Source of the DNA: a virus
Length of the DNA stretch: 64,000 nt
Direction: 5' to 3' (one strand)
IMG/VR virus record: IMGVR_UViG_3300029787_000024
Span: 1-64,000 of that record
The translations under genes and the position numbers were made by a program. Shown here piece by piece: positions 9,526 to 41,735 of this stretch; the stretch's first letter is position 1; each line of letters opens with the position of its first letter. A model generated the notes under the pieces. It was not told the DNA's origin, searched no databases, and saw only the letters and a program-made list of their open reading frames with translations.

Positions 9526-9597
9526 ATGGACGATATTACAGACAATATATTTATAGCAATCATTATACTATTCCTTGCTTATATGTTTATAGGATAA
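9526..9597 (+). CDS. Membrane miniprotein, 23 aa
   Basis: MDDITDN followed by one hydrophobic segment (IFIAIIILFLAYMFIG). The leader AAAATTTACAACC-ATG is nearly the same as that of the membrane protein at 12727 (AAATTTACAAACC-ATG). It stands alone between a terminator and a motif copy. Very short, so confidence is modest. Confidence 0.4.
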   Translation: MDDITDNIFIAIIILFLAYMFIG

Positions 9598-9599
9598 TG

Positions 9600-9619
9600 T
9601 TTTGCTGTTCTACAAAGTT
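9600..9619 (+). promoter_or_regulatory. TTnTGCTGTTC upstream motif, copy 5
   Basis: TTTTGCTGTTCTACAAAGTT, about 43 bases before the ATG at 9646, the first gene of the amidoligase operon. Confidence 0.5.
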
Positions 9620-9645
9620 ATGTTTAACCTTATAAAATTAAAATT

Positions 9646-10125
9646 ATGTCAAAAGAAAATTTAAGACACGCTACTATATTAGAAGCTCTACATGAGTATA
9701 AAAAAACTATAGATAGCGGTGCGATGTACAACGAAAAAGATGTACAAGAAACTATATATCAAATAGAGGATTTAGTTAGTAACAAGGCTATTATTCGTAG
9801 TAAAAACCAAAGACCTGAAACTATTACAGGTAACATCATATTAGAGTGTTATGATGTGTATAAAATGTTTAAATATATTATAAAAGATAGTCCCAATAAA
9901 GTAAGAACATCTTTATTAGATTCTAAATCAAATATACCTGTTAACGCTAATGTGTCATTACGTTATAATGAAAGTTGGGACGAACCTAGAAGGCTTGAAG
10001 AAGTTATTCTTACATTAATAGACACATTAAATTTTACTATGGGTCATATACCTGATACGTATCTTAAAGCAATAAAGAAAAATATTAATGGAGAAATTAA
10101 AAGAAGAAAAGAATGCGAAGAATAG
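9646..10125 (+). CDS. Unknown protein, first gene of amidoligase operon
   Basis: 159 aa, mostly helical and charged, beginning MSKENLRHATILEALHEYKK and ending with a basic KRRKECEE. No recognised domain. Its last 13 bases overlap the start of the next gene, and the following two junctions overlap by 13 and 14 bases, so four proteins (this one, 62 aa, amidotransferase, amidoligase) are made from one coupled message. It is therefore a candidate partner, regulator or substrate of the amidoligase system; this is inference from context only. Confidence 0.75.
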   Translation: MSKENLRHATILEALHEYKKTIDSGAMYNEKDVQETIYQIEDLVSNKAIIRSKNQRPETITGNIILECYDVYKMFKYIIKDSPNKVRTSLLDSKSNIPVNANVSLRYNESWDEPRRLEEVILTLIDTLNFTMGHIPDTYLKAIKKNINGEIKRRKECEE

Positions 10126-10301
10126 ATGATGAGTCAGTAAATGGTGTTCCCTATGAGGCTATAGAGGATTACCGAGAAATACAAGAGCCTTATTGGACTT
10201 GTGTTAGTGCGTTTGATGTGGAGTATTCACTATCATGCGACCAATCAATAGAAAATAACAAATTATTAACTAAAAAATTATATAAATTATGTGTGGATTA
10301 G
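10113..10301 (+). CDS. Unknown 62-aa protein in amidoligase operon
   Basis: Small acidic protein (MRRIDDESVNGVPYEAIEDY) with three Cys and several Tyr/Trp residues. It overlaps both neighbours by 13 bases. Given its size and place between an unknown protein and the amidotransferase, it could be a small subunit or even the peptide substrate of the ligase, but there is no direct evidence. Confidence 0.6.
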   Translation: MRRIDDESVNGVPYEAIEDYREIQEPYWTCVSAFDVEYSLSCDQSIENNKLLTKKLYKLCVD

Positions 10302-11215
10302 TAGGATTCAGTGGTAAAGCTAATACAAGTGTGTTTAAGGCTTTACATTTATTAGCAGATAACGACAGTAGGGGAGGTCACTCTACTGGATTATTTGTAA
10401 ATGGTAAGATTTATAAGACTGTTGAAGAGTCTATGAATATATTACCAATGCTTAAAACAAGTAAAACAGGTAGTGTTCTTATAGGACATACAAGGTATGC
10501 AACTCATGGTGAACACACCGTTGAGAACGCTCACCCTTATCAATATGGTAATATAGTAGGCGCTCATAACGGAGTTCTATCAAATTACGAAGAGGTGGGT
10601 AAAAAGTTTAATATCAAGAAAACTACTGTTGACTCTCAAATGATATTTAAATTATTGTCACAAGAAAAGAATGATAAGCATTTAGGCTTATTTAGTGGAG
10701 CAAAGAATGTCTTGTTCACAAAGGGTGATAACAAATTATATATATATCGTAAAGACAATCCTTTATATTATCTTGAAACAGAAGAAGGTATGTATGTAAG
10801 TTCTTTAGAAGAAGGACTTGAAAAGATTAAGAAAAAGAAAGATAAAGTTAAGGAAGTGCCTGAAAATCAGTTATTTACAATAGAAAATGGTAAGCTTATA
10901 AGTAAACAAAAGATTAAGCATAAGCCTATAGCCGCTAAGGTTTCTGTAAATACAGATTGGAGAAGTTATGGCTCACGTAATTATTATAGTAATCATTATG
11001 GTGGTCATCTTGCAAGAGACTTTAATAACGACCATTTCAATAATGATGATGAACTAAATGACGACGATTTAGAAAAAGAACATTTTGATGAGGTTAATAA
11101 CCACGCAAACTTTGTTCACGATTTATATTGTACTGATAGATTTAATGAGGAAGAGTCTTCAAAGTTAATGGAATTGTATAACTATTTAAACACTATGGCT
11201 TATGAGTACTACTAA
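10289..11215 (+). CDS. Class II glutamine amidotransferase
   Basis: 308 aa. It releases ammonia from glutamine and passes it to a partner enzyme. Hallmarks: Cys2 nucleophile after Met removal (MCGLVGFSG), GHTRYATHG at 66-74 with the glutamine-binding Arg, and AHNGVLSNY at 92-100 with the oxyanion Asn and Gly, plus TTVDSQMIFKLL. After residue ~215 comes a low-complexity, Asn/Asp/His-rich linker and a helical tail instead of a synthetase domain. The synthetase half is thus supplied in trans, most likely by the amidoligase whose gene overlaps it by 14 bases. Confidence 0.9.
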   Translation: MCGLVGFSGKANTSVFKALHLLADNDSRGGHSTGLFVNGKIYKTVEESMNILPMLKTSKTGSVLIGHTRYATHGEHTVENAHPYQYGNIVGAHNGVLSNYEEVGKKFNIKKTTVDSQMIFKLLSQEKNDKHLGLFSGAKNVLFTKGDNKLYIYRKDNPLYYLETEEGMYVSSLEEGLEKIKKKKDKVKEVPENQLFTIENGKLISKQKIKHKPIAAKVSVNTDWRSYGSRNYYSNHYGGHLARDFNNDHFNNDDELNDDDLEKEHFDEVNNHANFVHDLYCTDRFNEEESSKLMELYNYLNTMAYEYY

Positions 11216-12557
11216 AGAGGAATTATTAGAATGTGTGTGTGGAGATTGGCACCCAATAGATGAGTGTTATGAATTATATGGAGGGGGCTATGTCCACGAA
11301 GATGACAAAGATGATTATGTTCAGCTTTCAAGTGATTGCGACAGTTTATACTGTCATCAAGATGAAGTTATTATGTGTGAATGTAATGGGGAATGGTATC
11401 CTGAAGAATGTTTTTCTGATTACGAAGTTGAATATGACAACTATGATGAGTTATACAGATTCACAGATAATATGACGTGGGGTTACTATAACAGAAATCA
11501 TGAAGGTTGGTTTAACAGTGAATGTGATTATGTGCTTTCAGAGAATAATGACGTTTATTTTATGGATAGCTCCGTTGCAGAACGTTGTGGTTATATATAT
11601 TCAGAAAACAGGGAAGATTGGATACACGAAGATGATTGGGATGAGGATGAGGATGGAGATAACGGTGAAGAGTGGGATAATACATATGAATTATTAGATA
11701 AAAGATTTGATAAAACATTTGGCATGAAATATACATTTGGGGTTGAAATAGAAACTTCTGATGGATATATGGATTATCAAGAAAATTTAAATCTTAAAGC
11801 TGTCTTTGACGGTAGTATTAATGGTAAAGAATATGTAACTGGTTGTATGTCAGGTAATTCTGGTGTTAATATGCTAGATAAGATATGTAATTTATTATCA
11901 CATCACGAATGTTATGTAGACTCTACTTGTGGCGTTCATGTTCATATAGGTGGTGCTAACTTCAATAGAAGATTTAGTATACTATCTATTATGCTTGGAA
12001 ATATGCTTCAAGATGAGATATTCTCTATGTTACCAAAGTCAAGAGGTAAGAGTAGTTATTGTGTAGTAATACCTGATAAGTTCTATAAATTAAGAACTGT
12101 TAATAAAAGGCTTTATCCAAGAACACATAGCAGAATGCTTAAGCTTCTTGCTGAGTATTTATATTCTGACAGTGCTGAATTTGGTAGAGCTAATAATAAG
12201 AAAGGGCGTCATCCATATGGAAGATACTGTAGCTCAAGGTATAAGTGGTTAAACTTAAACAACTGTAGTTACGATAAGTCTGGGCCTGATACTATTGAGT
12301 TCAGATGTCACAGTGGCTCAAGAGACTTTAAGAAAATTTATAATTGGTTATTAATCTGTATGTGCTTTGTAAGGTATGTAGAGAATAATTCAAGACAGAT
12401 TATAGATAAATATAAAACGTGGAAATCTGACCCAGGATGTTTAATGTCAGATAGGGTTACTCTACGTGATATAGTCTCAGAAGGTCTTGGTAAGGACGCT
12501 ATGCCTTTATTAGAATATATAGATAAGAGAAAGGATAAGTTCCTTAAGCAGGATTAA
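11202..12557 (+). CDS. Amidoligase (COOH-NH2 ligase) with Cys-rich N-terminus
   Basis: 451 aa. The catalytic half (from ~175) shows the glutamine-synthetase-fold amidoligase pattern: FGVEIET (179-185), DGSINGKEYV (203-212), CGVHVHIGG (243-251), RYKWLNLNN and TIEFRCHSGS (364-373), giving acidic metal-binding and Arg ATP/substrate residues. Such enzymes join an amine to a carboxylate using ATP. Residues ~10-145 are a Cys/Asp/Tyr-rich region with repeated C-x-C..W.P..EC units (CVCGDWHPIDEC, CECNGEWYPEEC) that look like small zinc-binding repeats, followed by an acidic linker. Paired with the amidotransferase before it; a GGCT-like protein is encoded at 18436. Confidence 0.85.
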   Translation: MSTTKEELLECVCGDWHPIDECYELYGGGYVHEDDKDDYVQLSSDCDSLYCHQDEVIMCECNGEWYPEECFSDYEVEYDNYDELYRFTDNMTWGYYNRNHEGWFNSECDYVLSENNDVYFMDSSVAERCGYIYSENREDWIHEDDWDEDEDGDNGEEWDNTYELLDKRFDKTFGMKYTFGVEIETSDGYMDYQENLNLKAVFDGSINGKEYVTGCMSGNSGVNMLDKICNLLSHHECYVDSTCGVHVHIGGANFNRRFSILSIMLGNMLQDEIFSMLPKSRGKSSYCVVIPDKFYKLRTVNKRLYPRTHSRMLKLLAEYLYSDSAEFGRANNKKGRHPYGRYCSSRYKWLNLNNCSYDKSGPDTIEFRCHSGSRDFKKIYNWLLICMCFVRYVENNSRQIIDKYKTWKSDPGCLMSDRVTLRDIVSEGLGKDAMPLLEYIDKRKDKFLKQD

Positions 12558-12572
12558 TCGCTGCTCAATTAG

Positions 12573-12650
12573 AAAGGTGTGTGTATAAGTTAAATGTCCA
12601 GTTAACTTAGTTACTTTAAATGTGTTCGGTAAACACACACCTTTTTAGTT
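12573..12650 (+). terminator. Terminator with 12-bp stem and branched loop
   Basis: AAAGGTGTGTGT (12573-12584) pairs perfectly with ACACACACCTTT (12633-12644), followed by TTAGTTTT. The 48-base loop contains a second stem AAGTTAA/TTAACTT (12587-12593, 12602-12608) and a competing TGTGTT/AAACACA hairpin. It ends the amidoligase operon; the competing stems leave room for regulated readthrough. Confidence 0.75.
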
Positions 12651-12672
12651 TTATGCTGTTGTTCACTATCAT
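12651..12672 (+). promoter_or_regulatory. TTnTGCTGTT motif copy 6 joined to GTTCACTATCAT
   Basis: TTATGCTGTT is followed directly by GTTCACTATCAT (12661-12672), so both repeated elements of the early block sit side by side here, about 76 bases before the ATG at 12727. This copy diverges from the others after TGCTGTT. Confidence 0.45.
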
Positions 12673-18232: not shown

Positions 18233-18448
18233 ATGATAGAAATTAGTCCAAAAAGACTTTCAGAGGCATTAGCCCTAAATGAAACTAAGGAAATATATGG
18301 CGAAGAAGCTATGTATAAAAACAACTATGAGGAATTTAGAGGCCTAGTAATGCACGATGTAGTGAAAGAAACTTATAACAAAATATACAATAAATACTTA
18401 CAAGTTATATTGTCAATTGTACAGGAAAAAGAGCAATGGCAGAGTTAG
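18233..18448 (+). CDS. Hypothetical helical protein, 71 aa
   Basis: MIEISPKRLSEALALNETKE with further helical, charged sequence; ends EKEQWQS. It overlaps the start of the GGCT-like gene by 13 bases, the same overlap size as in the amidoligase operon. No domain recognised. Confidence 0.6.
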   Translation: MIEISPKRLSEALALNETKEIYGEEAMYKNNYEEFRGLVMHDVVKETYNKIYNKYLQVILSIVQEKEQWQS

Positions 18449-18789
18449 TATTTGTATATGGAACATTAAGAAGAGGTCACGGTAATCACGTTCTCCTAAA
18501 GGATTCAAAATTCATTGACGCTGGATTAACAAAAGATAAGTATGCTATGTATCATACAGGTATACCTTTTGTCAACGAAGATGAAGAGGTGTCTAATATA
18601 TTTGGTGAAGTATATCAAGTATCTAAGCACGTATTAAATACGCTAGATTTATTAGAGGGTCACCCCTCTTGGTATAACCGAAAAAAAATAACTGTGTGTG
18701 GTAGTAAAAAAAAGTACCACGCATGGTTATATTTTAACGACGATAAATCAGGTGTACTTATTGAGTCAGGAGACTACGAAAATAAATGA
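18436..18789 (+). CDS. Gamma-glutamylcyclotransferase-like (AIG2/GGCT) protein
   Basis: 117 aa, the usual length of the GGCT fold. Substrate loop VFVYGTLRRGHGNH (YGTLRRG at 8-14) and the catalytic-acid region LDLLEGHPSWYNR (Glu74) are both present, as is FGEVYQV. Known members cleave gamma-glutamyl amines, releasing 5-oxoproline, or act on related isopeptide-like bonds. Amidoligases and GGCT proteins are repeatedly encoded together, so this may trim or recycle the product of the ligase at 11202, although the two genes are 5.9 kb apart here. Confidence 0.88.
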   Translation: MAELVFVYGTLRRGHGNHVLLKDSKFIDAGLTKDKYAMYHTGIPFVNEDEEVSNIFGEVYQVSKHVLNTLDLLEGHPSWYNRKKITVCGSKKKYHAWLYFNDDKSGVLIESGDYENK

Positions 18790-29279: not shown

Positions 29280-32200
29280 CTACCTCTCAAATGATTTCCT
29301 AATTGGTTTAGGGAATAATTTAGGCAAAGTACCCATAGCCTTACTAGTTCCTTTCTTAAAATATTTAGTGTCTCTTTGGTATTCTGAGCCAGATATTATA
29401 TATTTTAATCCATTAAGAACATTAAGACCTGTATCTAAAGCAGGAACACTCATTAAGTATTGCCATTTATCTATGTTCATCATTAAATTCATATCCCAGA
29501 ATAAATCTTTTAACTCTCCAATAGTTCCACTTTCATCATCATCATCACTAAATCCGCCTATCATTGATATCAATCCTAAAACAAATATCATACCATAAGT
29601 TCCTCTAGCCGCTTTTGCTATAGCTTCTTGTCTATGCTTAGGAAGGTCTTTAAACTTACCTTTCCATTTTCTTACATCAAAATCTTTATCTCTAACAATA
29701 TCTCTAACAAAAGAAATGGTAGCTCTAGTAGAACCCACATGCCCTCTATTAAATCTATCTATTTTTTCTCCTCCCCATCTGTCCCATATAAATGTAGGTA
29801 ACCATCTTTTAAATTGAAGAAGGGTATTAACAAAACTATAAGTTTGTATTAACCTTTGGTCTAAAGCAGTATAACCTCTACCTTGTACAGCATATACATC
29901 TGATTTATATCTATCAGCATTTTTAGTTAATTGTTCATATACAGCAGAATCTATTACCTCTACCTCTCCATTCTTATTAATAGTAAATGAATTCCATTCT
30001 TCTTGAGTTAACTGACCAACAAAACCAACTCTTTGTATCCATTTCTCAGACACAGACATTGGTGCAAACATAATTTTACCAAACCCACCATCAAACAAAC
30101 CTTCTGATAATTGTTCTGTGGCATCTGTAATAATTCCAAACTCTATAGCTATAGCTGTAGCTTTTTTTCTAGACTCATTACTATAAATACCATTTTGACC
30201 AATTCCCCAGAATCTAGACTCACCTCTTCCCCACTCTTTAATACCACCTCTTCTAAATGTATTGTATTTACCTATAGCTATATTACCAACAGCAGCGGTA
30301 ATATTAAAACCTAAACCAACAAACATAGTCCATTTCTGTAAGTTATCAGCTATCTTATCAGCCCATATTCTTTTTCCATCTTTAGTAAAAATAGATTTTC
30401 TTGCAGTTTTTTGAAGAACATACCTATCTCTTAATAAATCTTTTATCCATCTTTGCGCAAAAGGGTTTCCTCTAAAAGAAGTATAAGATATAGCGCCATC
30501 AATTAAAGGAAGTTTTTCCATCATACCTCTAAAGCTAAATCCAGATTGCGTGTTTAACCCATGCGCCCACATAGTTTTATTAACATATTTTGTTAAGTTA
30601 TTATGTATATCAGATGAAGCCGAAAACTCTGCAGACGAAGAACGTGATGCTAAATTTCTATCAAAACTATGAGCATCACTTACATTAACAATATCTTCTA
30701 TTAATATAATTGGGTTTCCTAAGGCATCTTTACCCCCCTTAACATATCTATTAGCTTGATTAAAAAGAGCTTTAAGTTGTCTTTTAGACTTCATATCTTT
30801 TACGCCTTTTCCTTTATCCATTTGTTGTAATTTATAGTACTCAACAAATTGACCCAAAGGAGCAGTCACTGTAACACCATCCATTTCTCCTACAACAGCA
30901 ATATCTCTAAGCTTAGAATCATAGTTATGGCCTATAAAAGCGGCTGTCATATTTCTATTAATCATCATTTCAAATTTACCCGCAGCCATATTAGGTATAT
31001 ACCTTGAGCCTCTACCATCCTCTAATAAAGGCCTTCCATTTGGCCCTGTTTTTTGAGAAAGATGATTTTCAAACATTCCAGTTGTCTCAACATACATTCT
31101 TAAATAATTTATTTCAGCTTCTGTAAGGTTAGCATTTTTTACTTTAGCATCACTAATTGTTCCATCAGTATTCATAAAATTCTTAAACCTCAACACTCTT
31201 TCATATTTACCAGTTTGCGAATTAACAACTTCATGGTCTTCTACTAAATTCTTAAAAAGAAATTTATTATATAAAAATCTACCATAAGGAACATATGTAT
31301 GTATGGCTTTATGCACAAACCAAGGAACAAACTTAAACCAATTTAATCTACTCTTAAGAAGCTTATTATAAGCCTTGTCCATTTTCCTTCTTATTCTCCT
31401 ATTTTCTTTATAATAATGCATCTCTGACTTATTCAGCTCATTAAGTATAAAAGAAATCTCCCCTCTTTCAGAAGAAGATATATTAGAATCTAACCACATT
31501 TGCGCCCAGCTTATATCTTTAGTTCCAAGAGGATGGCCTTTCTCTAACTTTTCTTGCATGTCCACTAAAGCATCTACTTGTTGTTGAGAAAATCCTTGGT
31601 CCTTTACAGCTTTAATAACATCTTTTATATTAGATAAGTGCATCTTAGCACCTAAAGCTCTATTCATCTTTTCTCTTATGTTAGCCGCAGCAATAGGGTC
31701 TAAGTTGTTTATTTCATTTTTTAATATAGATAACATATCATCTATACCAATTTCCGTGTCTTCAATAACACTAATACCATTTTCATCTCTAGAAAAATAA
31801 GTCTGTTCTAACTTAGCTACCTTATGTATATCCTCCTGATATCTTTGATATTGTTCTTCTACTTTTTTATAAGCTTTTGGGTTTTGTTTTTTTAATGCAT
31901 CTAAGTCTACATGAGTTCCATATGAATTTACATATTCTTGGAAATCCCTATTAGTATTATTTCTTTGGTGAAAGATTTCATCATTTGTTAAATACTTTTC
32001 TTCATTAACAAACATACCATCTGTATCTTTCATTTCCTTTCCATCTATAGTAGCTAATGTTTTATGAGTAACGTTTCTTTTTCTTTGAGGGAATACCTCA
32101 TCAGTAGTTATATTAGACTCCTTAGACTCTATATTCATATCTCTTTCTACAACATCTATTCTAGAAGGCATTCTTTTGTCTCTAGTAAACGAAGATGCTA

Positions 32201-35200
32201 TAGGTGTTAAAGTAACTTTACCCTCTGTAGAGATATTAGCCTTATATAAAAGAGTTACGTTTTGTTTTTGAGAAGACTTTTTAATTTTAGACTTAGCGTC
32301 AACAGAATAAATTTCATTATTTATAAATAAATTTCCTCCTTCTAAATTATAATTATCATTTCTTACAATATTATTTCCCTCTACACTATAAGAAGCGTCT
32401 ATAAAAACTTTCTTATTTATATTTTTATTATTAACAAGAATGTGGTCAGCTACTTTATCTGCAAATTCAGCAGTAATTTTACCTTTACGAGACTCTTGCC
32501 CTTTTGATTTGATAAGCTGACTCTTTGTTACGTTACTAACTTTAGCAGCAGAACCTCCTAAATAAGGAAGTAAAGCTGTAGGCCCAGTATGCTGATTAGA
32601 TATAAGGTCATAAGCAAGTAAAAAATCTTTTACTCTTGCGGGTAATTTTTCAAATGCTTTTCTAGCAGACTCTGGATTACTAACCCCTCTATCGTTAATC
32701 TTAATAGTTGTATTGTTTTTTAAGTCCCCTGCAATTATACCTTGAGCAAACACTCCATCTGCCGTCATAGATACCTTTGTTGTGTTTCCAGTGCTTTCTA
32801 AATACCTACCCCTTCCAATATTTTCTGTTATCTCTAATTGCTCTATAGTGCAATAATTATTTATAAAAGAATATACCCCATTCATATCGCCTTTAGATAA
32901 CATATCAATATGATTAAGACCAAGGTTTAAAATTCTTTCAAAACTTGTATTAGGATTATTTAATTCCTCTAACACCCTTTCATTTTTAGAATAATAATCC
33001 CCAAATACATTAGTTAAACTAAAATTATATATACCGCTTTGAGCTAATCTAATAGAACGAACAGTATTTTCCATTCCAATTATATCTTTAGAGTTTAGAT
33101 TTCTAAAATCAGAAGCATTAACAGCTAATACTCTTCTCATTACAGAACGCCAATCACCAGCATAAGCTGGGTCTGAGTTTATTGTCTCTGCTTGTTTTAA
33201 TAAGATGTTAAAATTCTTTTGTAATATAGGATGCTTAAGGTTTATGGATTCAGATATAGTTTTCATGTCTCCATTTTTTAACGCTAACAATAAACCATCT
33301 ACCTGACTTTGTGTTAAAGTTTTACTAAATAATCTATGAGAAGACATTACATTATCTCTATGAATGTGAGAAAGTTGAATTACTTTTCTAATTAAATCTG
33401 CAACACCTAAACCAGTTTCAGGAAGCGAGCTATCTAAATTAGCTAAAGCCCCAAGAGTATTTGTATTATCTCTTAATGAAGAATTATTTAATTTAACAAT
33501 CAACTGAAGCATTCCAATTTTTGAAGACTCATTATTTAAGTTATTTAAATCTATACTTCTATCAGGTATTTGCCAAAAAGGAATATCTGTTATTTCATTA
33601 AGAAGGCTTTGCACAATATCAAACGTGGATGACTCAGGAGAATTTTGGTATTGCTCAACAAAATCTTTTGCTATATCAGAGTTCATAAGAACGGCTACAT
33701 TATCAAAAGACATTCCTCTAGCAAGAAGTTGAGACCACATATTAAAGGTTTGGGTATTCATATTTAACTCACTTGCATTACCTTTATTAGCGTCGTCTAA
33801 AAAGATGTTTAACATATAAGCTAAATTAAATCCTCTACCCTTATTACCTAAATAGTTATTATCTAATTTATTATTTTTTAACCCAGCGTTTTTAATGTCA
33901 CCCCTAAACATAGCTTTTCCTGTTACACTTAATTCATATGAACTAAGAACCTTGTATAACGTATTAAATAGGGCAGCCCTACCTATATTTTTTTGACCCT
34001 CTCTATTTGAACGAAACTTTTTATTATCATTAATAATACTTAAATCATTTATGTCTGACTCAGTATATTTAATTTTTTTAGACTCTATCTTATTTTTAGC
34101 TTTTTTAACTACCGCATCAAAGCCTATAGACTTTATCATAAACTCATGATACTTTTCACTTAACATAAGATTAGTGGTTGCATCAAAAGCTTTATTATAT
34201 TTATTTTGAGAATCAGTTAATTTTTGTTTAATAGTTTTGTCACCTTTTTTAGATATTTCTTGATGCTTAGATATCACATGTAAAGCGTCTCCATCTAAAT
34301 CAGAACCAATTAAATCAGAAATTTCAGAAGGAATCATAACCATACTTCCAGAACCTTTTATAATTTGAGTGACCTCACCAACTACAGCGTCCCCTAGCTT
34401 AGAGGCAGGGACTCTTTGTAATATAACCTTCTCACCTATTTTAAGACCCATTCCTTCATGAACTGCTACTTGAGCAGCTTTATAATTCTTACCATCTTTT
34501 TTATATCCCCTTAAGCCTAACTTATCATTAGTAGATATATTATCAAGGCTAACTTTAGTACCTACACCAAAATCAGTAGATTGATAAGTTACGCCCCCTT
34601 TACCTCTCATTCTTAAAGCTTTCTTTTTTAAGATAGAATTAGCGAGTCTTCTTCTTAAATCAACGGAGCCATTATCAAAACTACCTGTAGCTAATAAATC
34701 TATAGCAGCTTGAGAAAACACATTAGTATCTGCACTCTTTGCTAGCTTCTCAGAAACTTTCTTTATTTTATCTGCTGTTACCTCTCCAGATATAAAGTTT
34801 TCTGCTAATATACTTTCTACTTGAGACTTAAAAGCGTCAACCCAAAGTTGTTGTACATTGTTAGAATTTTTTATGTCAGCAGGTATAGAGTTTAAATGAA
34901 ACAATATTTGCTTAGCAATAGTTGATGATGAGGATTTTTTATCTAACTCTGTTTGTATACCAAAGAAAGAACCATCTAATCCATATATATCATTATCTTT
35001 CCACATACCATTTTGATGGTCATTTAACAAAACACTTCCATCTTCATTAGTCTTATTAAGTCTAGATAAATCATTTACATTTAAAAGATTGTTTTTTATA
35101 CCTGGACTTTGATTTTTTATAGAAGAACTAAACATTACTACAGGCATAACATTATTAGGAGTTGCTCTATCTCTAATATCTAAAGAGTCTCTAACGCTTT

Positions 35201-38200
35201 TAAAATTAGGGTTCTTTAATATAAAATTATCTGTAAGAACAAAGACATTAGTTTTTCCATAGAAAGGAAATCTTTCACCAGCTTTATTTGAAAATGTTTT
35301 ATTGTCTAAATTTTGTCCATTATAAACAAACTTGTAATGGTCTCCTACTTTTCTTAATCCTCCATATTTATTTTTAACCATCTTTCTTGCCATAGACTCT
35401 GTAATAAAAGAACAAGCATCTGTTTTATTAACACCATCTACTTTAACATCTTTTAACATTATAGGTTCTATTCTTGAATTAGAATCCCACTGAACGTGCA
35501 TAGCTACAGAACCAGCGCTTCTTTTAATATAATCATTAGGGCCTTTAAAATGTTTAGCTGGTCCAATTAAGAGGTCTTTGGCATGATATTTGTTTATAGC
35601 ATAGTTTAAAACTATTTGTCCTAAAAATCTATTATAAGCAGTTTTATCGCCTTTCATTTTCTTTTGAATAGACTTACTTATTAATTCTTTAGGCTGAGAC
35701 CTAATAAACTTATCAAGACTTTGTATTTCTTTTTTAAGTTTGTTTCCTTGTTTATCATACAAATCAAAAACAGGAATATCTCCTTCCAAAAACTTATCTC
35801 CTTTTTTATGAATCTCTTCAGCCTTAGCCCAAGCTTCTGAAGGGCTTAATAAATCTGCATTATTAATTCTTAAATGAAGACTTTTATCTGAGAATATAGA
35901 AATGTTCTGACTATACGTAGAGCTTTTACCAGAGATGGCCTCTGCTAATAAAGACACATCCATCATTGTTCTTTGATTAGAAGTTTCGCTTCCAGAATTA
36001 TAAGCTGAATTATTAACAAGACCTCCTATCATTTGCACCACCTCTACTCTTTCTCCATTTTTAATTTTTTGAAACAATGCGTTATCACCAAACACCCCTT
36101 CTAGCTCAATCATTTCAGCTGGAGTTAAGTTATCAAGCTTGTTCATTAATATATCTATCTGATGTTTTTTAGATATAAGATTAGTCTTTTCTCCATTAGG
36201 CATGGTTACTTGCGTTAAAAACTCTCCCTTAGCAATTCTTTCTGCTAAAGCGATAGATAGTTTTTTTATAATACCAAACTCTCTAATTTGATGAGATATT
36301 CTAGGAGTAGGCTTTCCTTGCTTTAAATACATAGGGTTAAACTCTATATTATTAGAATTAACATTAAGATTTATTCTAGGTCTAGTATCTTTAATTCCTT
36401 TATAAGTACTATTATCAACAGAGTATTCAACTAACTCTTTTAGATTATTCATTTCATCTGTACTAAAGTTTTCTTGTACATCTCTTGTTTTAGACCACTT
36501 TTGAAATGAATTTAATATAGCTTTCTTACCAATACTTTCTGGGTTTTTTCCATTAAAAATAAATATACCCGTGTCTCTAATTAATTGATGAGTAGCGCTA
36601 TTCTTATCTTTCTCCATGATAACATTACCTTTATCATCTTTCATCTCCTTACCGTTCTTATCTAGCTTAGGAATATCTTGTGGTATAAAACTATCAATTA
36701 ACTCTCCCTTTTCTAGCTCTTGAGGACTAATAGAATCTTTATAATTAGCAGGAACTATATTATGATATAAGAATTCAGCAACAGCTCTTCTTTTTTCTAT
36801 TAAAGATAAGTTATCATTATTTACTATTTTATATAAACCACCTACATTAGATAAGAATCTAAGTTTAGAAATTTCTTTTGCATCAAAAGACTTGTCTTGA
36901 TTAACTCTGGTTGGTGAAGATATTGTCATATCATTCTTCATTCTAAGACGAATGTTTTTTTCCATACCTACTTGCTTACCACTTCTATGAGGACTTATCA
37001 TAGGCTTACCATCTCTATAATCTAACTTATAAAAATCTATATTTTTAAAAGCATTTAATTCGTGATACATGTCATTAATAACATTATCCATTAAATCAAT
37101 TGATGAACCTTTATACTTACTGGCTATATATGACTCAGCTAAATAATTAGCAAACCTTGCTAGCATAGCATTTTCAGTTGGTTGAAGATTGTTTTCTTTA
37201 AGGTTAATTAAAGATTGCTCTACTTTAAGTTTAAATTCTTCAAGGGTAGCACTTTCCCAAGCAGCATTATAAAGTATTCTTCTTACTGCATTTCTTCCTA
37301 ATTTTTTATCCCTATCTTCTTTACCTTTTTTAGAATGAAGCGTCCCAAGATTTTCCATGCTAGTATATTCATTTATAGCAGCAGATAAAGTCTCGCCCTC
37401 TCCACTTCTTTTATCTTCCATATAAGCATCCATAGTTCCAACCTCCAATTCTTCTTCAAGTAAGTTTTGACCATCTTCTGAAAACACATCTGTACTCACA
37501 AGTGATTGAGATAGTAAAGCCTCATTTAATATACGATTCCAATTCTCTTCTATATAATCAATTGCTAACTGTTCTCTTTCGTTTTCAAAGTAAGAAATTA
37601 ATGAGTTATTTAAAATTTCTTTATTTTCTATTATAAAAGCTTTTAACTTCTTTTTTCCAGCAGGAGTGATTTGACCATTTTCATAATAAGGATACTCCAT
37701 CATTTCTTCTGTAAATACCTCGTCTTTTAAAAGGTTAATTTCATCATCAATTCTTCTGTTTACTTTTTCCTTTATTAAAGGAGACCTATCTCTTTGTTGA
37801 AAACTCTCAGAACTTCTTTTATTTACTCTAACTTTTCTTAGTGTATAATAATGCCCTTCTTTATTTTTATAATCTTTAACAACAGCTTCTAATGCTTTAT
37901 CAAATTGTTGGGCAAGATTTTCGTTTCCTGTTTTTTCTAAAATTTCTTTAGCCTCTTTTCTTGTAAACATGTTTTTTATAAAGTCCCAAAATCTTCTTAT
38001 AATATTTTTAGCCTCATTTCTTGTCTCTTGATTTTTAGAAATCTTTTTATCTAAAGCTTTTTCATCTAATTTTTTACCTAAAAGGTCAGCAAGAGTTTCT
38101 TCTAACACATATCTTTGTTGACTTGGAGGTAATTCTTTATAACCTTTAAGAGCCCTTTTAGAAGCATCAATGTATTGACTAATAGTTTTGTTTGTATTTT

Positions 38201-41200
38201 GAGGTCTTTTTTTCCACTCAGACCAAGTAACAATAGAATTTTGTGTTTTTAATAATTGAGCAAAAGTAAATACCTCTCCTTTTTTATTTTTAAATAAAAT
38301 CATATCAGGATAAGCCTCTCTTGTATTTTCATACGCAGGATTAACAAACTTTCCATTTTTATCTTTTTGTACAATAAAATTTCTAAGAGCTTTTACAACA
38401 GGTGAGTTCCAAAATTCTCCTAAATATATGTGAGAGCCTTCGTGAAATATAGTTTCTTGATTAGCACTACCCACATCTATAAACATACTTAAACCATGAG
38501 TAAGCCCTAATGTTCTAAGACCTTCTTCACTCATCATTAACTTATCTATAAATGTTATATTAACACCCTTCTTTATCATTTTATCTCTCCAAGCTTTTTC
38601 AAAAGCAATATGTCTTTTAGTATAATAAGGAGAAGTAGCAGATTGTTTGTTTACTTTTTTTCTTTGTAGTAAATCTTTTAGGCTAGTTTTTTTATCTTTA
38701 AATTGAGCTTCAGTTGTTGTTAACTGGCTTCTTTCTAGTTTTAATCTATTTAAGGTATTTATTTCTGATTTAAATAAAGCGCCTTGTTCTTTACTCTTTT
38801 TTTCTATTGCCGCAATTCTCTCATCTATTTCTTTAATTCTATTTTTCTTTTGTTCAGCAACTTTTTCAAAAACAGTCTTTTCTTTTTCTATTGTTTCTTT
38901 CTCTATGTTTCTTTTATTTGTTGAAGAATCAACTGACTTCTCTGCATGATTCATACTAACATCATTTTGTAGAGCAGCCTTTTGTTTAGAAAGCTTTAGA
39001 ATTTTATCTTTAATCTTTTGTTTTTTACCCTCATTCTTTTCTTTATTTAATTGAATGGCTAAATTATCTATTTCTTTTTGTACATTATCAGCTTGTTGCT
39101 TACCAGAAGTTGGTAGTTGCGCTGTCTTGCCTTTAGCTATATTTTCTGCACCTTTTTTAGTAGATATATTAGAAACTTCAATAGTTCCATCTGGAGACAC
39201 TATATTATATTTTCCACTTTTATTTTTTACAACTCTATACTTATAATGATTCTTAGGTCGAGTTTTGTTTTTAATTATATTATTAACCTCCCTCGCAGAA
39301 AGTTTTTTCATTTGAGAACTAGTATACCCAAGCTTCTTTAATTGACTTGCCTTCTTGCCTCTTATTTTCTTTTTTTGAGATTCTTTTTGTTTTATATTAA
39401 TAGGAGTACTATCTTCTTTCTTTTTTATAACATCATCTCTTTTTTTCTTATTCTTATTTTTAATTTCTTTTAGTTGATTTTCATGAAACTTTTTAGAGTC
39501 TGAATATAATTGAGGAATTATTTTTTCATAATTTGTTATAGTTTCTTGAAAAGACTTTTCTTGCATAGAAAATTCTTTATTTATAAAATCTATTTGTTGC
39601 TTTCTAAGCTTAGGGTCTTTTATAGTTTCTTTAACTTTATCTATTTGAGCTTGTTTGTTTGCAACAGTTTCATTTAACATTCTTTGAGTTGCGTCTTTAT
39701 AATAAGCAACTTCTGCTAATTGTTTTCTAGCCTGAGGTGTTAATTGTTTAAGAGACTCATTGTCAAACTTAGAAAACGTTTCGTTCATTTCAGTTAAAGT
39801 CTCTTTATACTGTTGACCTTGCTCCTTAGTAATTTGACCTTGCTTAACCATTATATCTATTCTACCACCTTCTCCTATAGCAGTCTCAACTTCTCTTTCA
39901 GCAACCACACCAAGCAAAAAGTTTTCTTTAGCAATCTCATTTTGAATTATTTTCTTTTGCTCTGGAGTCCAATCTTTTCCAATAATACCTTTTTCTTTTG
40001 CTATTGCTGCTTCTTTAGCAAAAAGTAAATTATAATTATTGCCATCCGTCATTCCAGAGGCATTAATTTTTTCATCTAAAATAGAACTTCTTAATGCCAT
40101 AGCATTAATTGTGTCTTTAAATGCACCACCTACAGTACCTGCAATACCTGGACCTAATGCCATAGCTGAAGATATAAGCCTAGTTTCTGCCGCTTCTGGG
40201 CTATTAAAGTAATCCCAAAACCCACCTTGTTGTTTAAATATTTGCAATGATTGACCAAAATTTCCTCCTGAAAAATCAACTATATTACCATCTTTATCTT
40301 TACCTTCAAACTTTGTACCAAGGGCGTTATGAGCATTTTTTGAAACAGACCAATCTTGATAAGTTTCTTGAACTTGCTCCAGATAAGCATCTGTTACTGT
40401 TATACCACTACTTATAGTAAAATTAGTAACTGCTGGAAGAAAACTTCCCGCAGAATTAACTTTTAATTTTGCACCAACACCTCCAACAAACTTAGACATA
40501 ACCATCCATTTCATAGCATCTACATACATATATTCCATGTTATTAGCCATAGTATATAATGAAGCACTTGCTGCTTGAGCAGTTGTTCCCCCTGCATCTA
40601 AAACTTTTCTATTAGCTTCACCAGCAAGCATTACACCTTCTAGTAAATTAATACCAACAGCGGCTCCACCAACAGCAGCAACGTCTTTTGCGGCCCAATA
40701 AGCTTGAGGCATCTTTCCAATACCCTTATGTCCAAAAAATTTAAACGCAGGATTAAGAACGTTCTTAGAAAGATTAGTGGTCATGTTTATAGGGGTAAGC
40801 ATATTTTTCGCTCCCCAGCTAGTACTAGCAACTCTTGTTCTAGCAAGGTTACTTATTTTTGTACCTGCAAAATAAAAACCAATTAAATTAGGAATCATTT
40901 TTCCAAATTTAGTATACCAAAATTGAGGCTTAAGCATTTGATTATAGTTCAACGTAAAGTTACCCTTTTCGTCATAAAAAAAGTTTTTTTCCAATTCATC
41001 ATCTAAATCAATCATATCATCCCATGTTCCATACCAATCTCCAGCTTCATTCAATACATCAGTAATTGGGTCTAATACACTAATACCAAGAACAGCTTCA
41101 GTTAAAACATCTATACCAATAGGTCCGCTTGCAGACCTTCTATTTATATCTTCTCTTTTTTGTTCACCCCATTCTGAGCCCATAAAAGCCTCCCCACCAT

Positions 41201-41735
41201 AAGACATAACATGCGCACTAAGTCTACCAGCTTCATGTATAAGAGTGTTTCCTAAATCTAATACATCGCCTATAGTATTTAAGAATAAATCCATACCACC
41301 AGCAGTAACACTTCTAATAAGTTGACCACCAACAGTATAATAATTTTTTTCAAAATTAGAAGAAAAAGCAGCGTTCCAAACATGGTCTCCAGCCTGTTCA
41401 GGAAGACCCATTTTTTCAGCAACACTTATTTGTTCTTCTCGATATTTAGCTCCAGTTTCAAAAGGTGTGTATCTCCAATCTTTTTCTATACCTTCTGCAA
41501 GCTGTCTATTTATAGCTTCTCTACCTTCACCAAAAACACTTTGATTAACAAAGCCATATTTGCCGTCTTGAGATTGAGCGTCTTGAGATGTGTATTCTTT
41601 TGGTATATTAGAGATGTTAACAGGTACTTCTTTTTCAGGTTTTGATATTCCCCTGTCATATAAATTAGCGCCTTGTCTTGGTGTATCTATACCAGTACGC
41701 CTTGATTCGTCAAATATTCTTCTTGTTGTAGACAT
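29280..41735 (-). CDS. Giant virion RNA polymerase/zincin polyvalent protein
   Basis: 4151 aa. A zincin-type HEGSH lies at 1098-1102 (context QETIFHEGSHIYLGEFW). The RNA polymerase signature is GSDLDGD, with DLDGD at 2479-2483, preceded by QRVPASKLGDAVVGEVTQ and IMVPSE-like strand VMIPSEISDLI, as in the double-psi barrel of crAss-type and YonO-type polymerases; the Asp residues hold catalytic Mg. Residues ~700-1030 are Lys/Glu-rich and coiled. Near the C-terminus is a hydrophobic helix (GMIFVLGLISMIGGF, about 4047-4061). Probably carried in the virion, injected, and used to transcribe early genes; the protease may process it. Larger than known crAss relatives I recall. Confidence 0.8.
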   Translation of the reverse strand: MSTTRRIFDESRRTGIDTPRQGANLYDRGISKPEKEVPVNISNIPKEYTSQDAQSQDGKYGFVNQSVFGEGREAINRQLAEGIEKDWRYTPFETGAKYREEQISVAEKMGLPEQAGDHVWNAAFSSNFEKNYYTVGGQLIRSVTAGGMDLFLNTIGDVLDLGNTLIHEAGRLSAHVMSYGGEAFMGSEWGEQKREDINRRSASGPIGIDVLTEAVLGISVLDPITDVLNEAGDWYGTWDDMIDLDDELEKNFFYDEKGNFTLNYNQMLKPQFWYTKFGKMIPNLIGFYFAGTKISNLARTRVASTSWGAKNMLTPINMTTNLSKNVLNPAFKFFGHKGIGKMPQAYWAAKDVAAVGGAAVGINLLEGVMLAGEANRKVLDAGGTTAQAASASLYTMANNMEYMYVDAMKWMVMSKFVGGVGAKLKVNSAGSFLPAVTNFTISSGITVTDAYLEQVQETYQDWSVSKNAHNALGTKFEGKDKDGNIVDFSGGNFGQSLQIFKQQGGFWDYFNSPEAAETRLISSAMALGPGIAGTVGGAFKDTINAMALRSSILDEKINASGMTDGNNYNLLFAKEAAIAKEKGIIGKDWTPEQKKIIQNEIAKENFLLGVVAEREVETAIGEGGRIDIMVKQGQITKEQGQQYKETLTEMNETFSKFDNESLKQLTPQARKQLAEVAYYKDATQRMLNETVANKQAQIDKVKETIKDPKLRKQQIDFINKEFSMQEKSFQETITNYEKIIPQLYSDSKKFHENQLKEIKNKNKKKRDDVIKKKEDSTPINIKQKESQKKKIRGKKASQLKKLGYTSSQMKKLSAREVNNIIKNKTRPKNHYKYRVVKNKSGKYNIVSPDGTIEVSNISTKKGAENIAKGKTAQLPTSGKQQADNVQKEIDNLAIQLNKEKNEGKKQKIKDKILKLSKQKAALQNDVSMNHAEKSVDSSTNKRNIEKETIEKEKTVFEKVAEQKKNRIKEIDERIAAIEKKSKEQGALFKSEINTLNRLKLERSQLTTTEAQFKDKKTSLKDLLQRKKVNKQSATSPYYTKRHIAFEKAWRDKMIKKGVNITFIDKLMMSEEGLRTLGLTHGLSMFIDVGSANQETIFHEGSHIYLGEFWNSPVVKALRNFIVQKDKNGKFVNPAYENTREAYPDMILFKNKKGEVFTFAQLLKTQNSIVTWSEWKKRPQNTNKTISQYIDASKRALKGYKELPPSQQRYVLEETLADLLGKKLDEKALDKKISKNQETRNEAKNIIRRFWDFIKNMFTRKEAKEILEKTGNENLAQQFDKALEAVVKDYKNKEGHYYTLRKVRVNKRSSESFQQRDRSPLIKEKVNRRIDDEINLLKDEVFTEEMMEYPYYENGQITPAGKKKLKAFIIENKEILNNSLISYFENEREQLAIDYIEENWNRILNEALLSQSLVSTDVFSEDGQNLLEEELEVGTMDAYMEDKRSGEGETLSAAINEYTSMENLGTLHSKKGKEDRDKKLGRNAVRRILYNAAWESATLEEFKLKVEQSLINLKENNLQPTENAMLARFANYLAESYIASKYKGSSIDLMDNVINDMYHELNAFKNIDFYKLDYRDGKPMISPHRSGKQVGMEKNIRLRMKNDMTISSPTRVNQDKSFDAKEISKLRFLSNVGGLYKIVNNDNLSLIEKRRAVAEFLYHNIVPANYKDSISPQELEKGELIDSFIPQDIPKLDKNGKEMKDDKGNVIMEKDKNSATHQLIRDTGIFIFNGKNPESIGKKAILNSFQKWSKTRDVQENFSTDEMNNLKELVEYSVDNSTYKGIKDTRPRINLNVNSNNIEFNPMYLKQGKPTPRISHQIREFGIIKKLSIALAERIAKGEFLTQVTMPNGEKTNLISKKHQIDILMNKLDNLTPAEMIELEGVFGDNALFQKIKNGERVEVVQMIGGLVNNSAYNSGSETSNQRTMMDVSLLAEAISGKSSTYSQNISIFSDKSLHLRINNADLLSPSEAWAKAEEIHKKGDKFLEGDIPVFDLYDKQGNKLKKEIQSLDKFIRSQPKELISKSIQKKMKGDKTAYNRFLGQIVLNYAINKYHAKDLLIGPAKHFKGPNDYIKRSAGSVAMHVQWDSNSRIEPIMLKDVKVDGVNKTDACSFITESMARKMVKNKYGGLRKVGDHYKFVYNGQNLDNKTFSNKAGERFPFYGKTNVFVLTDNFILKNPNFKSVRDSLDIRDRATPNNVMPVVMFSSSIKNQSPGIKNNLLNVNDLSRLNKTNEDGSVLLNDHQNGMWKDNDIYGLDGSFFGIQTELDKKSSSSTIAKQILFHLNSIPADIKNSNNVQQLWVDAFKSQVESILAENFISGEVTADKIKKVSEKLAKSADTNVFSQAAIDLLATGSFDNGSVDLRRRLANSILKKKALRMRGKGGVTYQSTDFGVGTKVSLDNISTNDKLGLRGYKKDGKNYKAAQVAVHEGMGLKIGEKVILQRVPASKLGDAVVGEVTQIIKGSGSMVMIPSEISDLIGSDLDGDALHVISKHQEISKKGDKTIKQKLTDSQNKYNKAFDATTNLMLSEKYHEFMIKSIGFDAVVKKAKNKIESKKIKYTESDINDLSIINDNKKFRSNREGQKNIGRAALFNTLYKVLSSYELSVTGKAMFRGDIKNAGLKNNKLDNNYLGNKGRGFNLAYMLNIFLDDANKGNASELNMNTQTFNMWSQLLARGMSFDNVAVLMNSDIAKDFVEQYQNSPESSTFDIVQSLLNEITDIPFWQIPDRSIDLNNLNNESSKIGMLQLIVKLNNSSLRDNTNTLGALANLDSSLPETGLGVADLIRKVIQLSHIHRDNVMSSHRLFSKTLTQSQVDGLLLALKNGDMKTISESINLKHPILQKNFNILLKQAETINSDPAYAGDWRSVMRRVLAVNASDFRNLNSKDIIGMENTVRSIRLAQSGIYNFSLTNVFGDYYSKNERVLEELNNPNTSFERILNLGLNHIDMLSKGDMNGVYSFINNYCTIEQLEITENIGRGRYLESTGNTTKVSMTADGVFAQGIIAGDLKNNTTIKINDRGVSNPESARKAFEKLPARVKDFLLAYDLISNQHTGPTALLPYLGGSAAKVSNVTKSQLIKSKGQESRKGKITAEFADKVADHILVNNKNINKKVFIDASYSVEGNNIVRNDNYNLEGGNLFINNEIYSVDAKSKIKKSSQKQNVTLLYKANISTEGKVTLTPIASSFTRDKRMPSRIDVVERDMNIESKESNITTDEVFPQRKRNVTHKTLATIDGKEMKDTDGMFVNEEKYLTNDEIFHQRNNTNRDFQEYVNSYGTHVDLDALKKQNPKAYKKVEEQYQRYQEDIHKVAKLEQTYFSRDENGISVIEDTEIGIDDMLSILKNEINNLDPIAAANIREKMNRALGAKMHLSNIKDVIKAVKDQGFSQQQVDALVDMQEKLEKGHPLGTKDISWAQMWLDSNISSSERGEISFILNELNKSEMHYYKENRRIRRKMDKAYNKLLKSRLNWFKFVPWFVHKAIHTYVPYGRFLYNKFLFKNLVEDHEVVNSQTGKYERVLRFKNFMNTDGTISDAKVKNANLTEAEINYLRMYVETTGMFENHLSQKTGPNGRPLLEDGRGSRYIPNMAAGKFEMMINRNMTAAFIGHNYDSKLRDIAVVGEMDGVTVTAPLGQFVEYYKLQQMDKGKGVKDMKSKRQLKALFNQANRYVKGGKDALGNPIILIEDIVNVSDAHSFDRNLASRSSSAEFSASSDIHNNLTKYVNKTMWAHGLNTQSGFSFRGMMEKLPLIDGAISYTSFRGNPFAQRWIKDLLRDRYVLQKTARKSIFTKDGKRIWADKIADNLQKWTMFVGLGFNITAAVGNIAIGKYNTFRRGGIKEWGRGESRFWGIGQNGIYSNESRKKATAIAIEFGIITDATEQLSEGLFDGGFGKIMFAPMSVSEKWIQRVGFVGQLTQEEWNSFTINKNGEVEVIDSAVYEQLTKNADRYKSDVYAVQGRGYTALDQRLIQTYSFVNTLLQFKRWLPTFIWDRWGGEKIDRFNRGHVGSTRATISFVRDIVRDKDFDVRKWKGKFKDLPKHRQEAIAKAARGTYGMIFVLGLISMIGGFSDDDDESGTIGELKDLFWDMNLMMNIDKWQYLMSVPALDTGLNVLNGLKYIISGSEYQRDTKYFKKGTSKAMGTLPKLFPKPIRKSFER

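Follow-up and report, generated by a model that had tools for sequence, protein, structure and literature searches.

What chemistry does a phage encode when it couples a glutamine amidotransferase to an amidoligase, and which parts do the small proteins encoded beside them play? The locus that raises this question lies in a stretch of 64,000 nt (the window), positions 1-64,000 of IMGVR_UViG_3300029787_000024, a virus contig of 67.8 kb in full. The terminase and capsid proteins of the record match phage families, and because crAss-like gut phages and Flavobacterium phages are among the nearest named relatives of the capsid protein, the source is likely a distant crAss-like phage with a Bacteroidota host. 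Four plus-strand genes, ORF1, ORF2, a class II glutamine amidotransferase (GAT) and a ligase, overlap successively by 13, 13 and 14 nt, and their coordinates and lengths agree with those of the initial annotation. The features are as follows (comparison loci are given L numbers throughout).

9595-9624 (+): promoter-like repeat TGCTGTTCTACAAAGTT, member of a family upstream of early plus-strand genes
9646-10125 (+): ORF1, 159 aa
10113-10301 (+): ORF2, 62 aa
10289-11215 (+): predicted class II (Ntn) GAT, 308 aa
11202-12557 (+): Amidoligase_2 ligase, whole ORF, 451 aa
11202-11721 (+): N-terminal ~170 residues of the ligase, an acidic beta-hairpin repeat array with non-conserved Cys, best read as degenerate treble-clef/LIM-like
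11722-12557 (+): Amidoligase_2 (GS-fold COOH-NH2 ligase) catalytic domain; E182/E184, E210, H246/H248 and R368 invariant (21 sequences)
12567-12651 (+): strong hairpin with a U-rich 3' end that closes the transcription unit, -29.5 kcal/mol
18436-18789 (+): GGCT/AIG2-like gamma-glutamyl cyclotransferase (PHROG 2520, PF06094), probable functional partner, 6 kb downstream

The upstream motif and the strong terminator that had been described as framing the genes both stand out from shuffled sequence. Five plus-strand copies of the repeat TGCTGTTCYMCAATGTT, with at most 3 mismatches, precede early genes (6354, 6666, 7066, 7653 and 9603); the whole window holds six matches against 0.78 expected, a number reached in 0 of 100 shuffles. 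The hairpin 3' of the ligase forms about 18 pairs (z = -3.98), and none of 200 shuffles was as good. The unit is real, intact and operon-like; it belongs to a known kind, here in a form specific to its clade. Its neighbours are replication and recombination genes, encoding a Sak4-like annealing protein, NinB, DnaB, RusA and an exonuclease. A weak plus-strand match to TGCTGTTCYMCAATGTT is also present at 12646, and a possible ORF for a hydrophobic peptide of 23 aa (MDDITDNIFIAIIILFLAYMFIG) occupies 9527-9598 (+), just 5' of the cassette promoter. Elsewhere in the window, 29280-41735 (-) encodes a 4151-aa protein that has no PHROG match and contains GSDLDGDALHV, which resembles the DxDGD signature of crAss-phage RNA polymerase.

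Both enzymes score above the curated Pfam cut-offs, in support of the identities first assigned to them. The GAT matches GATase_6 (E=4e-14), begins with Met-Cys and carries the motifs HTRYATHG, AHNG and VDSQ; C2, R69, T72-H73-G74, N94-G95 and D115 are invariant in 12 aligned sequences. Judged by its Met-Cys start and its TRxxTHG, HNG and Asp motifs it is a class II (Ntn) GAT, and from these conserved signatures it looks intact as a glutaminase. In sequence it resembles the glutaminase parts of both GlmS and PurF, with which it has the N-terminal Cys nucleophile and the class II motifs in common. Whereas those enzymes possess a SIS or phosphoribosyltransferase acceptor domain, no known kind of C-terminal acceptor domain was found in the 308-aa GAT, and we infer that its ammonia is accepted by the separate amidoligase. 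Among related loci, a second, smaller GATase_4-like protein with the start MCLI follows the amidoligase at L065:10010-10672 (Pfam match run on L065), and one likened to it lies at L063:10004-10753. With its annotated start, the GAT of Cellulophaga phage phi14:2 (g040, L024:3489-3584) has an additional hydrophobic stretch ahead of the catalytic Cys, and a GTG three codons 5' of this Cys may be the true start.

The ligase matches Amidoligase_2 (PF12224) with E=5e-15 and 56.5 bits against a curated cut-off of 22. Besides the invariant residues listed above, the 21 ligase sequences have conserved regions in an E-x-E strand, DGS..E, C-G-x-H-V-H and EFR; the roles of individual active-site residues we take to be those of other GS-fold enzymes. 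Foldseek searches with the AlphaFold model (pLDDT 83.5) returned YbdK (1tt4, 1r8g) and glutamine synthetases as the best solved matches, with PafA and Dop lower down, and the resemblance to GS-fold enzymes, though significant, is loose (E 2e-4, TM ~0.3, rmsd 8.5). Sequence and model thus point to a GS-like fold whose active site has conserved acidic, His and Arg residues. The window ligase has this type of fold in common with YbdK (gamma-glutamyl-cysteine ligase-like) and PafA/Dop, but it is only ~10% identical to them and has an extra N-terminal hairpin array.

How should this extension be understood? It had been described as a Cys/Asp-rich repeat region and proposed as a new scaffold, with structure prediction suggested as a way to find zinc sites. 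Its acidic and folded character is borne out: the extension contains 52 D/E, 9 K/R and 10 C in 172 residues, and AlphaFold models residues 11-130 with high confidence as a row of small beta-hairpins and short helices (block means 86-94). The emphasis on cysteine is not, as none of the ten is invariant in the 21 sequences; C59, the best, is Cys in 16/21 relatives, and no other position has Cys in more than 10. Conserved paired Cys/His ligands, as in a LIM/treble-clef zinc array, were not found in the window clade, and a zinc scaffold was rejected on this ground. The homologous ligase of L095, whose front aligns with the window extension in a profile comparison, has 21 cysteines among its first 150 residues, most of them paired as CxxC, and a sub-threshold LIM match; a viral structure library likewise returns a LIM-named phage protein for the ligase (BFVD A0A6J7X2B6, LIM domain containing protein). 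In these LIM/treble-clef phage amidoligases repeated small units precede the ligase domain, as in the window, but the L095 protein retains its paired Cys, most of which the window clade has lost. The best reading of sequence and model is that the extension is not a new module but a degenerate treble-clef (LIM-like) array, which would bind no metal. A false lead is thereby removed: the Cys-rich front of the ligase is no conserved zinc site.

The GGCT-like protein that had been noticed at 18436 is well supported (PHROG 2520, E=5e-30; PF06094, E=2e-26). GGCT was present in 11/11 amidoligase-bearing records tested and in 0/3 motif-only records (see below for the motif), although the genomes of the clade are related by descent and counts within it are not independent. 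Relatives in IMG/VR keep the order ORF1, GAT, amidoligase, replication protein, DnaB, ... GGCT, and in L063 and L065 GGCT, GAT and ligase are contiguous. Upstream of this trio L065 encodes class I GAT-like, COOH.NH2 ligase and ATP-grasp-like proteins, and L063 encodes proteins of matching size and order (by sequence likeness only). In five distant loci (L095-L099) the amidoligase is always within a few kb of a GAT, directly adjacent in three. Genes g037-g041 of phi14:2 encode GGCT, ATP-grasp, COOH.NH2 ligase, GAT and amidoligase in a row, and uncultured phage cr108_1 (Crassvirales) and Leptolyngbya phage Lbo-JY46 have similar cassettes. In phi14:2 and cr108_1 the GAT is directly upstream of the amidoligase, as in the window, and GGCT heads the phi14:2 cluster; the phi14:2 GAT has 638 aa rather than 308. 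The window phage differs from cassettes of this type in having ORF1 and ORF2 in front and no detectable PF14395 COOH.NH2 ligase in its 67.8-kb, possibly incomplete record.

Given its occurrence across the IMG/VR relatives, phi14:2, cr108_1, Lbo-JY46 and L095-L099, the GAT-amidoligase pairing is general, and it has already been reported in phages (PMC10945688, PMC10580990). According to the available parts of these reports, Phage-ZRK32 and the OM43 phages MEP401/402 have the pair as in the window, Phage-ZRK32 together with GGCT; they are different phages, and those parts mention no ORF2-like leader. The window also resembles the cassettes of Iyer et al. 2009 in that GAT adjoins the amidoligase and GGCT is encoded in the genome. 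It is not of the MurT-GatD type, since peptidoglycan amidation by that pair uses a class I GAT and a Mur ligase, whereas the window encodes a class II GAT and Amidoligase_2. The phage set of GAT, amidoligase and GGCT is thus already published, and the core of the cassette is ordinary.

How might the cassette work? From sequence and structure models we think it probable that the unit is a two-subunit, glutamine-dependent, amide-forming enzyme, with trimming by GGCT, docking by the ligase array, ORF2 as an accessory and ORF1 as a helper. We envision that the GAT, its Cys2 exposed after Met removal, would hydrolyse glutamine to yield ammonia. The GS-fold amidoligase would then activate a carboxylate with ATP, probably a glutamyl-like group of a small molecule or peptide, for joining to this ammonia or to an amine. 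The phage GGCT would trim or recycle the gamma-glutamyl amide products, although the distance of 6 kb to its gene counts against the proposal. The acidic hairpin array might serve as a folded docking or recognition part, derived from a treble-clef zinc array with its metal ligands lost. The complete ammonia-to-amide chemistry proposed in the initial annotation therefore holds insofar as the coupled GAT and amidoligase have intact signatures and GGCT is present, but not as a novelty: phages with this set are already known, and some relatives have a richer cassette with additional ligases.

Read more narrowly, the same amide chemistry would yield peptidoglycan or outer peptides, amidated or decorated with glutamyl groups, and these products would block superinfection. 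Such modification of cell-envelope peptides was proposed for phiEco32-type sets (Iyer et al. 2009, as cited in the available text of PMC10580990); GGCT and ligase would fit gamma-glutamyl chemistry, and related cassettes contain further peptide-type ligases. However, no cell-wall gene was recognised beside the cassette, which has replication and recombination genes for neighbours, and we hold this narrower outcome to be possible but unlikely. Quite improbable, in our estimate, is the view, put forward for Phage-ZRK32, that these are auxiliary genes serving host nitrogen metabolism in general: that phage combines GAT, amidoligase, glutathione synthase and GGCT, and host growth was stimulated in nitrate or ammonium, but the assignment is speculative in the available text of that report (PMC10945688), and it is not obvious how a free GAT paired with a ligase of peptide type would feed central metabolism.

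Alternatively, the pair might serve nucleotide or DNA base modification, placing ammonia or an amine onto a modified base in the manner of archaeosine-type phage pathways. The position of the cassette among replication genes would suit this, and phages do have GAT-containing base modification pathways, such as Gat-QueC of phage 9g. Yet no 7-deazaguanine or base-hypermodification gene was found among the classified neighbours, the ligase family acts on carboxylates and the linked GGCT fits peptides better, which makes base modification very unlikely.

What, then, does ORF2 contribute to the proposed two-subunit enzyme? Its N-terminal motif, D-[ED]-x(2,3)-[NG]-G-[IV]-P-[FYW]-[DE]-A-I-[EDN]-[DE]-Y, recurs in 14 related contigs, found by profile and DNA-pattern searches, as an in-frame GAT leader of 28-32 residues. 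This leader ends directly at the catalytic Met-Cys, and the Met before the Cys is kept in every fused form. The motif is on a separate small protein in the window and in three close relatives (L002-L004). A TAA at 10283-10285 closes the GAT frame of the window two codons before the GAT ATG, ruling out a frameshift that would join ORF2 to GAT, and L002-L004 have a TAA at the same distance. Constraint on the motif acts at the level of the protein (pS 0.65, pN 0.19), with 304 differences at third codon positions versus 88 and 61 elsewhere.

The motif also heads proteins of 55-57 aa in L032, L037 and L044, records in which no amidoligase was found and in whose examined loci no GAT was detected; one motif-bearing record without a detectable ligase is 89 kb long. 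A search of GenBank phages with the 55-aa protein gave no match. Two exact degenerate patterns had 0 matches in 84,980 prokaryote genomes, and a bacterial feature was rejected on this basis. Pfam matches of ORF1 and ORF2 to Terminase_2 and Ribosomal_S17e were sub-threshold and were dismissed as noise. At L032:5444-5881 and L037:5897-6373 (-) the motif-bearing small proteins come after a CPxCGQ zinc-type protein, whose gene in L032 is preceded by a ResIII/Helicase_C-type helicase gene. More distant GAT-ligase pairs are without the motif. Loci of a leaderless sister group have a small ORF of another kind (~53-62 aa) between their GAT and amidoligase genes (L010:7441-7614, L060:8405-8566, L061:1225-1413), and small accessory proteins therefore recur in the cassette.

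Since the motif is fused to GAT rather than to the ligase in 14 contigs, ORF2 is probably an accessory peptide of the GAT, and in the window the separate protein would bind to it. Because the N-terminal Cys of a class II GAT has to be free, a fused leader would have to be bypassed or cleaved off; one that was neither would block the catalytic Cys and speak against a two-subunit enzyme. Retention of the Met before the Cys in every fused form favours an internal start at Met-Cys, and cleavage is a possible alternative by analogy with PurF propeptides, which are known to be cleaved. More speculatively, and rather doubtfully, the motif could regulate an Ntn GAT as an N-terminal peptide specific to phages, with control over whether the catalytic Cys is exposed. 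In its fused state it would be a propeptide that can be detached or an inhibitory leader with a dual start, in its separate state a stand-alone inhibitor or activator, and it would be reused on other small early proteins. The idea that ORF2 is a Pup-like or RiPP-like substrate, suggested by a small protein adjoining a GS-fold ligase with PafA and Dop among its structural matches, deserves hardly any credence: the motif is joined to GAT, is absent from more distant GAT-ligase pairs and is present in the 89-kb record, and the C-terminal tails read LCVD/KCVD, with no Pup-type Gly-Gly-Glu/Gln. That ORF2 is the private substrate of the ligase is also made less likely by the occurrence of its motif in phage contigs without detected GAT or ligase. 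Co-occurrence of ORF2 with the pair, which the initial annotation had proposed to examine, is seen in the fused contigs and the window group and was not detected in L032, L037 and L044.

What does the same comparison show for ORF1? All 14 of its profile matches in IMG/VR are in GAT-amidoligase contigs, and with L002, L003 and L048 it is present in 17/17 clade relatives. It was found only in this clade; the more distant GAT-amidoligase loci L059-L065 gave no convincing match. Of the three larger proteins ORF1 is conserved least (20-53% identity to the window copy), and its weak predicted model (pLDDT 71, pTM 0.31), used as query, found no PDB fold at E <= 0.001. L012-L014, returned by a single-sequence search, were rejected, their 298-aa protein being of another kind; L012 and L014 have no GAT, ligase or ORF1-profile match. 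We propose that ORF1 is a fast-evolving, clade-specific helper. Both upstream genes had been put forward as new and unknown partners. At the level of sequence, what is new is the clade-restricted ORF1 and, in place of an independent ORF2, a leader peptide that is separate in the window and joined to the front of the GAT in most relatives.

Phage amidoligase cassettes are common, and no report of their product was found in the parts of the literature available. The window clade represents a compact version, in which GAT and ligase are coupled, no extra ligase was found adjacent and a conserved accessory peptide is either fused or separate. In so compact a system, three or four small proteins suffice to test assembly, the hand-over of ammonia and what the N-terminus does.
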